Shown here one piece after another: positions 24,632-29,266 of a stretch of 44,637 bases of DNA; position 1 is the stretch's first letter, and the number at the start of each line of letters is the position of its first letter. The notes beneath the pieces are model-generated. The model had not been told where the DNA came from, did not search any database, and saw nothing but the letters and a program-made list of their open reading frames with translations. The DNA lies in NCBI GenBank assembly GCA_017482205.1, contig JAFUNK010000015.1, positions 1-44,637 of the forward strand. Direction: 5' to 3'. A program made the translations under genes and the position numbers. The DNA comes from Lachnospiraceae bacterium. Lineage in GTDB: Bacteria > Bacillota > Clostridia > Lachnospirales > Lachnospiraceae.

Positions 24632-24823
24632 TTACAGTGCTGCAATCTTTTCCATCAGCACATCGATGTCCATGCCATGTACCATAGCTGCTTCCTCAAG
24701 AGACTCTCCCTGTGCAGAAGGGCATCCTAAGCAATGCATGCCGGACTCTAATAAAATAGGTGCCACTTCGGGTGCCTTGCGTAAAATTTCACCAATTGTC
24801 ATATCTTTAGTTATATTTTCCAT
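24632..24823 (-). CDS. DUF1858-domain small protein
   Basis: 63 residues, [56 protein letters not shown]. This is the DUF1858 (ScdA N-terminal-like) pattern, with the HCLGCPSA pair of cysteines that may bind a metal or cluster or act in redox chemistry. The role is unknown. A GGAGG-type site precedes the start. It is divergent from the pfl operon, and an association with anaerobic metabolism would fit but is not demonstrated. Confidence 0.88.
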
Positions 24824-24970: not shown

Positions 24971-24999
24971 TTGACGTGTATACACGTTTTTCATATAAT
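24971..24999 (+). promoter_or_regulatory. pfl operon promoter with palindromic operator in the spacer
   Basis: TTGACG, 17-bp spacer, perfect TATAAT. The 14-bp perfect palindrome ACGTGTATACACGT (24974-24987) overlaps the -35 and spacer, as expected for a repressor site. The GTATAC core resembles operators of GntR-family regulators, which is only suggestive. Confidence 0.75.
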
Positions 25000-25068
25000 A
25001 TTTTCATAGGATTAGAAAAGTTTTAACTATACATTCACTAATTCAAATTTTATAGGAGGCATTTCAAA

Positions 25069-27108
25069 ATGAGACCAGAATGGAATGATTTTGTAGGCGG
25101 CAAATGGGAAAGCGAAATTAACGTTCGTGACTTCATCCAGAAGAACTACACCCCTTATGACGGTGATGAGTCTTTCTTAGCCGACGCTACACAGAACACA
25201 AAAGATTTATGGCAGCAGGTACTTGAGCTGCAGAAGCAGGAAAGAGAAGCAGGCGGCGTTCTTGATATGGACACCAAGGTTATCTCTACCATCACTTCTC
25301 ACGGCCCCGGATACCTTGACAAAGACAAAGAAACCATCGTAGGTTTCCAGACTGACAAGCCTTTCAAGCGTTCTTTACAGCCTTACGGCGGTATCAGAAT
25401 GGCAGAAAAAGCTTGCTCTGACAACGGTTATGAAGTAGATCCTGAAATCAGCGAGTTCTTCTCTACTCACAGAAAAACTCACAACGCAGGTTGTTTCGAT
25501 GCTTACAATGCAGAAATGAGAGCTTGCCGTTCTTCCCACATCATTACCGGTCTTCCTGATGCTTACGGCCGTGGTCGTATCATCGGTGACTACAGACGTA
25601 TCGCTCTGTACGGTATTGACAGACTGATTGAAGACAAGATTGCACAGAAGGATTCTACCGGTCGTGTTATGACTGATGACGTAATCCGTCTTCGTGAAGA
25701 AATCTCCGAGCAGATGGTTGCTCTTAAATTAATGAAAGAAATGGCTGCTTCTTACGGCTGCGATATTTCCAAACCCGCTACCAACGTTAAAGAAGCTATC
25801 CAGGCTACTTACTTCGGTTATCTGTGTGCAGTTAAAGAGCAGAACGGTGCTGCTATGTCCTTAGGACGTACTTCTACTTTCCTTGACTGCTTCGCTCAGA
25901 GAGACTTAAAGAATGGTACATTTACCGAAGATCAGATTCAGGAATTCGTTGACCACTTCATCATGAAGTTACGTTGCGTCAAGTTTGCCCGTACTCCTGA
26001 ATACAACCAGATCTTCGCCGGTGACCCTGTATGGGTAACCGAATCTTTAGGTGGTGTTGGTGTTGACGGTCGTCACATGGTTACCAAGATGTCTTTCCGT
26101 TATCTGCACACCTTAACTAACCTTGGTGCTTCTCCTGAGCCTAACCTGACCGTACTGTGGTCTACCAGACTTCCCGAGAACTTCAAGAGATACTGTGCAA
26201 AGATGTCTATCCAGACTTCTTCCATCCAGTATGAAAACGACGACTTAATGAGAGTATCCCACGGTGATGACTACGGTATCGCTTGTTGCGTATCTTCCAT
26301 GGTTATCGGTAAGGAAATGCAGTTCTTCGGTGCTCGTGCTAACTTAGCTAAGTGTCTGTTATACGCATTAAACGGTGGTATTGACGAAGTTACCAAGAAG
26401 CAGGTTGGTCCTAAGTACCGTCCTGTAAGCGGTGACGTTCTTGATTATGATGACGTTATGGATAAGTTCATCGATATGATGGAATGGCAGGCAGACGTTT
26501 ATGTAAACACCTTAAACGTAATCCACTACATGCATGACAAGTACTGCTATGAAAGAGCACAGATGGCTCTTCATGACAGAGATGTTAAGCGTTACTTCGC
26601 AACCGGTATGGCTGGTCTGTCCATCGTAGCAGACTCCTTATCCGCTATCAAGTACGCTAAGGTTGAAGTTGTTCGTGACGAAGACGGTATCATCGTAGAC
26701 TTCAAGACTACCGGTGAATTCCCTAAATACGGTAACGACGATGACCGTGTAGACAGCATCGCTCGTGATATCGTAGCTAAGTTCATGACTGCTATCAGAA
26801 GACATCATACCTACAGAAACGGTATTCCTACCATGTCCGTTCTTACCATTACTTCTAACGTAACTTATGGTAAGGCAACCGGTAACACACCTGACGGACG
26901 TAAGAAAGGACAGCCTTTCGCACCCGGTGCTAACCCTATGCACGGACGTGATACCCACGGTGCAGTAGCTTCCCTGTCTTCCGTAGCTAAATTACCTTTC
27001 AACCACGCAGAAGACGGTATCTCCAATACCTTCACCATCATTCCCGGTGCTCTTGGTAAAGAAGATAAAGTATTCTCCGGCGACATCGAATTAGATTTAA
27101 ACAAGTAA
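25069..27108 (+). CDS. pflB: Pyruvate formate-lyase body lacking the glycyl-radical domain
   Basis: Converts pyruvate and CoA to acetyl-CoA and formate. The barrel is complete: [14 protein letters not shown], the active-site pair Cys406-Cys407 in [27 protein letters not shown], and [24 protein letters not shown] near the end. The protein stops after [19 protein letters not shown] at 679 residues, where ordinary PFL of ~750-760 continues through a linker into the glycyl-radical domain. That domain (RVSGYAV) is encoded separately at 27486-27728, and 679+80 gives the usual total. Codon use is strongly biased as in highly expressed genes and there is no frameshift, so this is not a decaying gene. 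TAGGAGG precedes the ATG. The pflA activase is downstream. An assembly or sequencing error is unlikely, because each part has its own ribosome binding site. Confidence 0.95.
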
Positions 27109-27162
27109 TTCAAAGCAAATCGAGATGACGCTCGACATCAAATTAGATTTAAACAACTAATT
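27081..27162 (+). repeat. Imperfect direct repeat of the pflB 3' end
   Basis: The last codons and stop of pflB (27081-27110, starting CGACATCGAATTAGATTT) recur 52 bp later (27133-27162) with 28 of 30 positions identical. The second copy is out of frame and untranslated. It lies exactly at the point where the gene is split. Confidence 0.85.
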
Positions 27163-27196
27163 TGACAGGTTGAGAATTAAACTTAAATTAACAGGT

Positions 27197-27215
27197 CGGG
27201 CGGCTGCGCCGCCCG
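27197..27215 (+). other. GC-rich hairpin between pflB body and the 75-aa gene
   Basis: GGGCGGC and GCCGCCC form a very stable 7-8 bp stem with loop TGC. No T run follows; the AGGAGG of the next gene is about 10 nt downstream. It could set mRNA processing or stability, or act as a partial attenuator, between the body and the small genes. Confidence 0.6.
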
Positions 27216-27236
27216 GTCATAACAAGGAGGAACACC

Positions 27237-27464
27237 ATGGACGAAAAAGCTATGATTGACGATTTGATAAAATTGTTGGACTCCGGTATGGCAAGTGGCG
27301 TAGGTCACGTAAATGTCAACTTTGATGAAAACAACAACAGTCAAAAGAACGTTCAGACAATGGGTTGTACGGATTGTTCCAGAACCCCCTTAGCATGCAG
27401 TGTTCCTACACTTCATCAAGGACTTGATGATTATAGCGGTCGCAAAGACAGCGACAAAAATTAA
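27237..27464 (+). CDS. 75-aa protein related to the front of the glycyl-radical domain, with CxxC-x6-C
   Basis: AGGAGG lies 6 nt upstream of ATG. Residues 7-29 (IDDLIKLLDSG...GVGHVNVNF) align with the start of the separate radical domain next door ([11 protein letters not shown]...GGHHLNVNV), sharing the LLD, G, H and NVN positions. The second half has no RVSGYA motif and so no radical glycine. Instead it has MGCTDCSRTPLACSVPTLHQGLDD, with Cys44, Cys47 and Cys54. I do not know this family. Inference: a paralogue of the detached domain that may dock in the same cleft as a cap, chaperone or redox sensor. Confidence 0.8.
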   Translation: MDEKAMIDDLIKLLDSGMASGVGHVNVNFDENNNSQKNVQTMGCTDCSRTPLACSVPTLHQGLDDYSGRKDSDKN

Positions 27465-27485
27465 ATTAACAGGAGGATCAAAACA

Positions 27486-27728
27486 ATGGCAGCAGCAAAT
27501 GCACAGGTTGATAACTTAGTAGCTTTACTTGATGGCTATGTTGTTAAAGGTGGTCATCACTTAAACGTAAACGTACTTAACAGAGATACCTTATTAGATG
27601 CTCAGCAGCATCCTGAGAAATATCCTCAGCTGACTATCCGTGTATCCGGATACGCAGTTAACTTCATTAAGTTAACCGCTGAACAGCAGGCAGACGTTAT
27701 TTCCCGTACTTTCCATGAGGCTATCTAA
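27486..27728 (+). CDS. Detached glycyl-radical domain of pyruvate formate-lyase (GrcA-like)
   Basis: 80 residues corresponding to the whole C-terminal domain of [28 protein letters not shown], then [18 protein letters not shown] with the radical glycine at Gly55, and the end [23 protein letters not shown] precedes the ATG. Escherichia coli GrcA/YfiD is a comparable free domain that rescues damaged PFL. Here no fused copy is seen in the window, so this protein should be an obligatory subunit that pflA activates. It is the last gene before a strong terminator. Confidence 0.93.
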
Positions 27729-27748: not shown

Positions 27749-27782
27749 TAAAAGACTGTCACATATGTGGCAGTCTTTTTTT
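27749..27782 (+). terminator. Terminator behind the radical-domain gene
   Basis: AAAAGACTGTCAC, loop ATAT, GTGGCAGTCTTTTTTT: a long stem ending in a T run. Confidence 0.9.
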
Positions 27783-27946: not shown

Positions 27947-28213
27947 ATGCCCGCACTATCTATGTTTTTTGGAATTATTGTACGAATGCAAAGTGAAATG
28001 GGTGGAAAACATAACAAACCACACATCCACGCTCTGTATGGAGAGCATGAAATTGTAGTAGGAATAGATGGTGAAGTTTTAGAAGGAAGTTTCCCAAATA
28101 AGCAAATGAAATTGTTGTTAGCATGGATGGCGATTCACGAAGAAGAATTACAGGCAAATTGGAGACTATTGAGCAATGGTGATGGCTATTTCAAAATAGA
28201 ACCGTTGCGTTAA
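27947..28213 (+). CDS. DUF4160-domain protein
   Basis: 88 residues with the DUF4160 pattern MPALSMFFGIIVRM...HNKPHIHALYGEHEIVVGIDGEVLEGSFPNKQMKLLLAWMAIHEEELQANW. The PHIHA histidines are conserved in the family. These genes are commonly paired with DUF2442 genes, and the pair has been suspected of toxin-antitoxin behaviour without, as far as I know, a firm function. AAGGGAG lies upstream. Base composition is more AT-rich than the surrounding pfl genes, which points to insertion into the operon. Confidence 0.9.
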   Translation: MPALSMFFGIIVRMQSEMGGKHNKPHIHALYGEHEIVVGIDGEVLEGSFPNKQMKLLLAWMAIHEEELQANWRLLSNGDGYFKIEPLR

Positions 28214-28233
28214 TGGATTGGGAGGAATTTACT

Positions 28234-28476
28234 ATGCTAAGACCAACCGCAATTCGAGTAGATGTATTTTGTGCATATCAGATTGTAGTCACTTTTGATA
28301 ATGGTGAAAAAAAATGTTTTGATGTCGAGCCCTATATAAAAGGGGACTGGTATGGACTACTACGGTCTTATGAATATTTTAAACGTGTTACTACGGATGG
28401 CTATACAGTGGTATGGCCCGACGGACAGGATATATGTCCGGATGAATTATATGATTTGGGAAAACCTATACCATAA
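28234..28476 (+). CDS. DUF2442-domain protein
   Basis: 80 residues, LRPTAIRVDVFCAYQIVVTFDNGEKKCFDVEPYIKGDWYGLLRSYEYFKRVTTDGYTVVWPDGQDICPDELYD: the DUF2442 signature. The start at 28234 follows GGAGG at 8 nt; an ATG at 28213 overlapping the DUF4160 stop is also open. It is co-transcribed with the DUF4160 gene and is its probable functional partner. Confidence 0.9.
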   Translation: MLRPTAIRVDVFCAYQIVVTFDNGEKKCFDVEPYIKGDWYGLLRSYEYFKRVTTDGYTVVWPDGQDICPDELYDLGKPIP

Positions 28477-28513: not shown

Positions 28514-29266
28514 ATGCAAGGAAGAATTCATTCAATAGAAACCTTTGGCACTGTTGATGGTCCCGGTGTACGCTTCGTAGTATTTGTGCAGGGTTGCCCC
28601 ATGCGTTGTGCTTATTGCCACAACCCGGACACCTGGGCAATGACCGGTGGCACAATGATGGAACCGGCTGATATTATAGAACAATACGAGAGAAACAAAG
28701 GTTTTTATCGTGGCGGCGGTATTACCGTAACCGGTGGCGAGCCCTTAATGCAGGTAGATTTTTTAATTGATTTGTTTACTCTGGCAAAAGAAAAAGAGAT
28801 TCACACCTGTATCGACAGCTCCGGTATTGCTTTTAACCGTAGCAACACTGACTACGTAGAAAAACTGGATAAACTGATGACACTAACTGATTTGGTTATG
28901 TTGGACATCAAACATATCAACCCTGAAAAGCACAAAGAATTGACCCAACAGCCTAATGAACACATTCTGGATTTTTGTAGATATCTGGATGAAAAAGGCG
29001 TGGATATGTGGATTCGTCACGTAGTAGTTCCCGGCATTACCGATGATGACAAATATCTGGAAGAACTGGGCTACTTTATCGGCCAGTTCCATAATTTAAA
29101 GGCGTTAGATGTACTGCCCTACCACACCATGGGCGAGAAGAAATACGAATCCCTGGGTATGGAGTATAAATTAAAGGGTGTTCCCGCCATGGATAAAGAA
29201 AAGGTCGTAGACAAGAAAGCGGTTATTTTACAGGGTATCAAAAAGAGACGTGCTGACATGGCGTAA
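28514..29266 (+). CDS. pflA: Pyruvate formate-lyase activating enzyme
   Basis: Radical SAM enzyme that abstracts a hydrogen from the PFL glycine. The cluster motif CPMRCAYCHNPDTW (CxxxCxxC), the FGTVDGPGVRFVVFVQGC start, the GGEP-type motif VTGGEPLMQ and VMLDIKHIN are diagnostic. Length 250 is typical. Its substrate here should be the detached 80-residue domain. It is separated from that gene by a terminator and the DUF4160/DUF2442 pair, so it probably has transcription of its own. AAAGGA precedes the ATG. Confidence 0.97.
   Translation: MQGRIHSIETFGTVDGPGVRFVVFVQGCPMRCAYCHNPDTWAMTGGTMMEPADIIEQYERNKGFYRGGGITVTGGEPLMQVDFLIDLFTLAKEKEIHTCIDSSGIAFNRSNTDYVEKLDKLMTLTDLVMLDIKHINPEKHKELTQQPNEHILDFCRYLDEKGVDMWIRHVVVPGITDDDKYLEELGYFIGQFHNLKALDVLPYHTMGEKKYESLGMEYKLKGVPAMDKEKVVDKKAVILQGIKKRRADMA

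Follow-up and report, generated by a model that had tools for sequence, protein, structure and literature searches.

The current analysis has identified, in the genome of a Lachnospiraceae bacterium, a pyruvate formate-lyase (PFL) encoded in separate pieces. Judged by its sequence, the enzyme is a PFL in two-gene form, in which the catalytic body is the product of one gene and the radical glycine resides on the product of another, the radical subunit GrcA3. Between the two genes lies a third, which encodes a small protein with a cysteine module, and in related genomes a counterpart of this module is found in the tail of the body itself. No other feature of the system is as unusual as this middle gene with its body-tail counterpart. 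In anaerobes PFL provides a main route by which pyruvate is converted into acetyl-CoA and formate; the enzyme is vulnerable in that the whole chain is lost when oxygen meets the radical. The split of PFL described here is real, conserved and old.

The body and radical subunit genes in the window

The window, the whole stretch of 44,637 nucleotides that was analysed, encodes on the forward strand a PFL body of 679 residues (25069..27108, ATG start) which matches the formate C-acetyltransferase model TIGR01255 with 1096.8 bits against a cut-off of 994.2, over positions 2-665 of 744. Its residues Cys406-Cys407 align with the catalytic cysteine pair of E. coli PFL (IACCVS), the catalytic residues are intact and the tail is devoid of cysteine. 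The Pfam family Gly_radical is represented in the body by its positions 1-51 of 106 only, and the radical glycine is absent from the body chain. The GrcA3 gene (27486..27728, forward strand) encodes a protein of 80 residues with the motif RVSGYAV, including Gly55, that matches Gly_radical over positions 50-106 (E 3e-23) and the NCBIfam model NF038360, GrcA3, with 159.3 bits, passing the cut-off of 158 by 1.3 bits. The coverage of the 744 positions of the PFL model is thus complementary, with 2-665 in the body and 663-743 in the small protein; with reference to E. coli PflB (Met counted) the homology of the body extends to V681, and N685 is the first residue matched by GrcA3. GrcA3 is a separately encoded radical domain and most probably the working one.

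These comparisons confirm the first-pass annotation where it described a body with Cys406-Cys407 but no radical domain at its end, and a gene of 80 residues with RVSGYAV and Gly55, each gene having its own AGGAGG. The two-part layout which it proposed stands as regards the split between body and radical domain; a gene of 75 residues situated between the two had been overlooked. This middle gene (27237..27464, forward strand) encodes a helix and a strand like those at the start of the radical domain, followed by C-x2-C-x6-C, and is the trans form of the cysteine module. AGGAGG motifs precede the body gene (25054..25059), the middle gene (27225..27230) and the GrcA3 gene (27471..27476), all on the forward strand. 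The activating enzyme gene pflA follows on the same strand (28514..29266, 250 residues; TIGR02493 303 bits, cut-off 231.75).

A promoter-like site, TTGACG-17-TATAAT (11/12 matches; 24971..24999, forward strand), is located upstream of the body gene; its position is its sole support, the region containing 8 such sites against a mean of 8.3 in shuffles, which is no excess. A terminator-like hairpin with a T run (27750..27779, forward strand) lies 3' of the GrcA3 gene, terminator-like sites numbering 6 against 3.0 (sd 1.7) in shuffles. The gap 3' of the body gene contains a repeat of the final 30 nucleotides of this gene, including its stop codon, with 93% identity (27133..27162, forward strand), and a remnant resembling this repeated end is also seen at another locus (L033).

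Further genes flank this group. A divergent gene upstream of the body (24632-24823, reverse strand) encodes a small DUF1858 protein (PF08984, E 3.4e-25) containing GMHCLGC. Among 49 related loci with sufficient flank, 40 have a similar gene, recognised by pattern, upstream of the body; the protein may be a redox partner. A DUF4160 gene and a DUF2442 gene (27947-28476, forward strand) are found between the terminator of GrcA3 and pflA.

The assembly to which the window belongs comprises 2.16 Mb in 28 contigs and is 73.7% complete. At this completeness the body matched only itself in the assembly and no full-length PFL was found there. A complete pflB elsewhere in the genome, which the first-pass annotation had named as evidence against its proposal, has therefore not come to light in the part of the genome that is available. 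A 749-residue frame on another contig (C18) passes the Gly_radical cut-off barely (22.3 against 22.2 bits) and is not listed by the PFL model. A second GrcA3 gene of 79 residues, also detected by Gly_radical, has been identified at an unlinked position (L002, G000:C27:158847-159086), and several genomes of the same genus likewise have two GrcA3 genes.

Distribution and age of the split

A survey of 37 genomes of the same genus, including the present one, revealed split bodies over the cut-off that end near position 665 in 24 genomes; one genome (G006) has a full-length PFL instead, and none has both forms. The same layout of body and GrcA3 with in-frame stops has been seen again in loci of this genus. 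Open frames of 868-919 residues in relatives were considered as candidate fusions of body and radical domain and have been rejected, because stop codons separate the two in all three loci that were translated.

At the level of the family, 112 of 150 genomes have a PFL match over the cut-off. A split body is encoded in 58 genomes and a full-length PFL in 59, with both present in 3, so that the split form is about as common as the full-length form in this sample, and 55 of the 58 split-body genomes are without a full-length PFL over the cut-off. The split body is found in one piece in 54 genomes, in two pieces in 2 and cut by a contig end in 2; the counts omit genomes with mere PFL pieces on broken contigs, the four split cases in pieces being those which still show the end of the body. 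Bodies with the same end and a neighbouring short RVSGYA gene, for which the first-pass annotation had suggested a search, recur in loci of the genus, and bodies and small proteins are kept across hundreds of species. The match list for the class reaches down to 1117 bits, a score below which most split bodies fall, and the proportions given here are accordingly those of the genus and the family.

The split bodies form one main clade in the trees. A well-supported branch sets them apart in a tree of 52 rows, thinned from 126 (support 100/99), and in another of 61 rows (100/97), both built without the split body of one genome (G399). In a tree of 67 rows this body is placed outside the clade, weakly beside a full-length group (94/84), and this placement raises the possibility of a second, independent split.

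A cysteine module in trans and in cis

The middle protein of the window has the cysteine motif GCTDCSRTPLACSVPTLHQGLDDY where the glycyl loop would stand, the loop itself being absent. A profile of ten middle proteins, searched against 84,980 species genomes, revealed 433 stretches that encode a relative, of which 80 loci were fetched and analysed; the records are nearly all of Lachnospiraceae or uncultured relatives. A GrcA3 gene follows the middle gene in all 80, and in all 73 whose contig includes the end of the body, this end is at the same position and the tail is free of cysteine. C-x2-C-x6-C is conserved in 80 of 80 loci and the longer form VQTMGCxDCSRTPxACSVPTL in 78. Of the 80 loci, 60 have a ribosome-binding motif in front of the middle gene and all 80 have one in front of the GrcA3 gene, as compared to 61 of 1600 random places, and in two loci the middle gene has a TTG start behind AGGAGG. 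The pN/pS ratio is 0.178 for the middle protein, pN being the lower of the two in 1890 of 1891 pairs (62 sequences out of 81, 19 whose start was missed by the search pattern being excluded), and 0.114 for GrcA3 (81 sequences). These values indicate that the middle protein is under selection.

Residues 1-27 of the middle protein correspond in the alignment to the opening segment of the radical domain, comprising the helix NLVxLLDGY and the strand HHLNVNV. The comparison of this N-terminal region with radical domains by hhalign gave E 2e-8 and a score of 43.4, the best of 200 column shuffles reaching 17.5; a comparison based on closer sequences yielded an E value of 3.3e-4 and a score of 24.9, with 13.8 as the best of 50 shuffles. 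Positions 2-34 of the middle-protein model also match the radical domain of full-length PFLs in a survey of the class. In the window protein the three cysteines are separated from a conserved histidine by 20 to 30 residues, and in GrcA3 the same histidine lies 30 residues from Gly55. The middle protein is accordingly described, by homology, as a mimic of the start of the radical domain. It has no match in Pfam and no sequence match in the PDB at E up to 10.

A further family of small proteins (L148, L151-L154) has the same helix-strand start and ends in AYHHGRCDVGSPWAxG. Its genes are unlinked to PFL in the stretches seen, and two members are without a Pfam match.

The 58 split genomes of the family fall into two groups. 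In 37 of them a separate middle protein is encoded and the body tail is without cysteine (trans systems); in the other 21 the body tail has at least two cysteines and no separate middle protein was found at E up to 1e-3 (cis systems). None has both forms of the module and none has neither. The tails of the cis systems, exemplified by CGDMACKVPTLHKGIDDDD, CGNQACNIPNIMESIDNE, CPDEACRIPNLMEGLDREF and DCACCEPN, are devoid of the helix-strand mimic; many have two cysteines only, and seven show other cysteine spacings. A comparison of cis with trans tails by hhalign gave E 1e-7 and a score of 34.0, the best of 200 shuffles scoring 14.8. The first shuffle controls of the hhalign tests had given outliers (best shuffle 128.6), and 2 of 100 shuffles had equalled the observed score when cis was compared with trans; on repeating the controls with match columns only, none of 200 shuffles did so in either comparison. 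Cis and trans systems interleave on the trees, where well-supported branches force at least five changes. The cysteine motif has been exchanged repeatedly between a free protein and the body tail.

Departures from the common arrangement are few. The middle gene is unlinked in 2 of the 37 trans genomes (G062 and G190); that of G062 (L227, G062:C64) is situated directly 5' of a gene which we take to encode a MoxR-type ATPase. The middle proteins of two family genomes (G072 and G086) end after C-x2-C, without the ACxVPTL part. Beyond the family survey, trans systems have been identified in G046, G057 and G359 and cis systems in G402 and G493. Of 12 further split loci in the class survey, four are cis and five trans, and no module was found at three, namely G362 (82% complete), G399 and G461. 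The proposition that the module is obligatory wherever PFL is split, which holds in 58 of 58 family genomes, fails in these 3 of 12 loci and has been rejected; the module is hence not needed everywhere.

Proposed working, rival explanations and known systems

We consider it probable that PFL in these bacteria is assembled from parts, with the cysteine module acting at the site vacated by the radical domain. The body with its catalytic cysteines and GrcA3 with its glycyl radical would complement each other to a full PFL chain with its fold. The first-pass annotation had PflA acting on the free 80-residue protein; this is not supported by the results for E. coli YfiD (PMC8683613), according to which YfiD alone was not activated and a radical was detected on it only with a PFL body present. 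The likelier course is for this reason an activation of the docked complex, GrcA3 most likely receiving its radical from PflA while seated on the body. By analogy with YfiD, GrcA3 broken by oxygen would be replaceable by fresh GrcA3, and such an exchange of the damaged radical part would be in keeping with the two GrcA3 genes of the genome.

The middle protein keeps the helix and the strand that join the radical domain to the barrel and should therefore dock at the same slot, so that its cysteines would come to lie roughly where the glycyl loop is otherwise situated. Such docking is suggested for the trans form only, because the cis tails are without the mimic. In our view the cysteine module would act at the vacated slot, protecting the body as a thiol cap or a redox guard up to the arrival of a new GrcA3. 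A thiol role is preferred to pure recognition, as the cysteine motif is the sole element common to the cis and trans forms. In a more specific form of this proposal the middle protein is a decoy that occupies the slot, places its cysteines beside Cys406-Cys407, and gates or guards the body until an undamaged radical subunit displaces it. The decoy proposal is put forward tentatively, as possible rather than probable. If it is true, PFL activity would be set by the exchange of the radical subunit and the thiol subunit, and in the other lineages the switch would be built into the body tail. The AlphaFold2 models of the read-through chains are poor, with a pLDDT of 33.3 for body-middle and a pLDDT of 61.6 and pTM of 0.63 for body-middle-GrcA3. 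Structure searches with the latter model retrieved PFL and other glycyl radical enzymes, a result that does not show the docking place of the middle protein.

Other explanations of the middle protein have to be weighed. It could be a recognition element supplied in trans, its spare strand acting like residues 696-733 of oxygen-cleaved E. coli PFL, which recruit the radical subunit and render it activatable, and its cysteines being secondary. The same helix and strand are present in the middle protein, and PMC8683613 reports that without these residues YfiD binding is undetectable and activation is down 32-fold; however, the 21 cis systems among the 58 of the family have neither a separate middle protein nor a second strand, possessing the cysteine tail only, and the explanation is regarded as unlikely. 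The module could also bind a metal or an Fe-S cluster, in the manner of the small subunits of 4-hydroxyphenylacetate decarboxylase and benzylsuccinate synthase. The conservation of the three cysteines in all 80 trans loci would suit such a role, and solved complexes of other glycyl radical enzymes include small partner subunits, as their entry titles indicate. We nevertheless find metal binding doubtful, in view of the many cis tails with two cysteines only and of a middle protein that matches neither Pfam nor the sequences of the PDB. That the middle protein is a decaying, functionless copy of GrcA3 is hardly credible: its N-terminal half does copy the start of the radical domain and its glycyl loop is gone, yet the low pN/pS, the near-invariant motif, the frequency of ribosome-binding sites far above that at random places, and the cis tail that takes its place where it is absent all argue against decay.

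A decayed state could likewise be supposed for the body, GrcA3 being then a spare part and the real full-length PFL lying in the missing quarter of the genome. The incompleteness of the assembly leaves room for this, and a full-length PFL does occur in 3 of the 58 family genomes with a split body and in G006 of the same genus. Such a supposition is very improbable in the face of the 55 split genomes where no full-length PFL passes the cut-off, the conservation of bodies and small proteins over hundreds of species and the intact catalytic residues.

On the preferred reading, that of a PFL assembled from parts, many gut bacteria produce a central enzyme of their fermentation in pieces. If the parts do exchange, these bacteria would repair PFL by replacing 80 residues, and the small cysteine part may guard the body while the radical part is absent. 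The repeated movement of the module between a free protein and the body tail points to an unexplained step in the assembly or protection of glycyl radical enzymes.

The split of PFL is partly known already. The GrcA3 family has been named (NF038360, autonomous glycyl radical cofactor GrcA3), a name that refers to the small protein only and not to the middle protein or the cysteine tails, and two recent PDB chains labelled 'Formate acetyltransferase' look like split bodies by their sequences. The chain 38lb_A (739 residues) has 44 residues past the last matched position of the window body, containing ECDMCEM, and its residues 1-206 match bodies of the split clade best among the best 25 matches listed; the last residues of 38la_A are LGKED, as in the body of G399. 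Searches of the open-licence papers of PMC yielded no recognisable description of a split PFL or of the cysteine module, and no paper on 38lb or 38la. The part without a description in this literature is the cysteine module with its cis/trans exchange.

E. coli GrcA/YfiD and phage T4 Y06I, spare parts for oxygen-cleaved PFL, resemble GrcA3 in being free radical domains that complete a PFL lacking its end, and share the RVSGYAV loop. GrcA3-like proteins of 68-81% identity are also encoded in 15 viral contigs of IMG/VR (L192-L206), some of them longer than 100 kb, which may be compared with Y06I of T4. The GrcA/YfiD model TIGR04365 scores 98.3 bits on the 80-residue protein, below its cut-off of 170. 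YfiD, as described in PMC8683613, has 127 residues with a disordered first half and occurs beside an intact PFL, whereas the body of the present system never has a radical domain of its own.

A laboratory counterpart of the natural split is the truncated E. coli PFL 1-695 (tPFL) combined with YfiD, in which the body also ends before the radical domain and the radical protein is free. In the work of Andorfer and co-workers (PMC8683613) this pair is as active as the wild type once activated; no binding was observed by ITC, and activation was 32-fold below that of YfiD with PFL cut at 733 (cPFL). A bare split of such kind thus works badly in E. coli, and these results indicate that a split PFL can work, that activation takes place on the complex and that something more than the bare body helps. 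The natural cut is situated before the helix, at about residue 680 and 15 residues earlier than in tPFL, and a cysteine module is added in the natural systems. This module may be the helping element beyond the bare body in the present bacteria.
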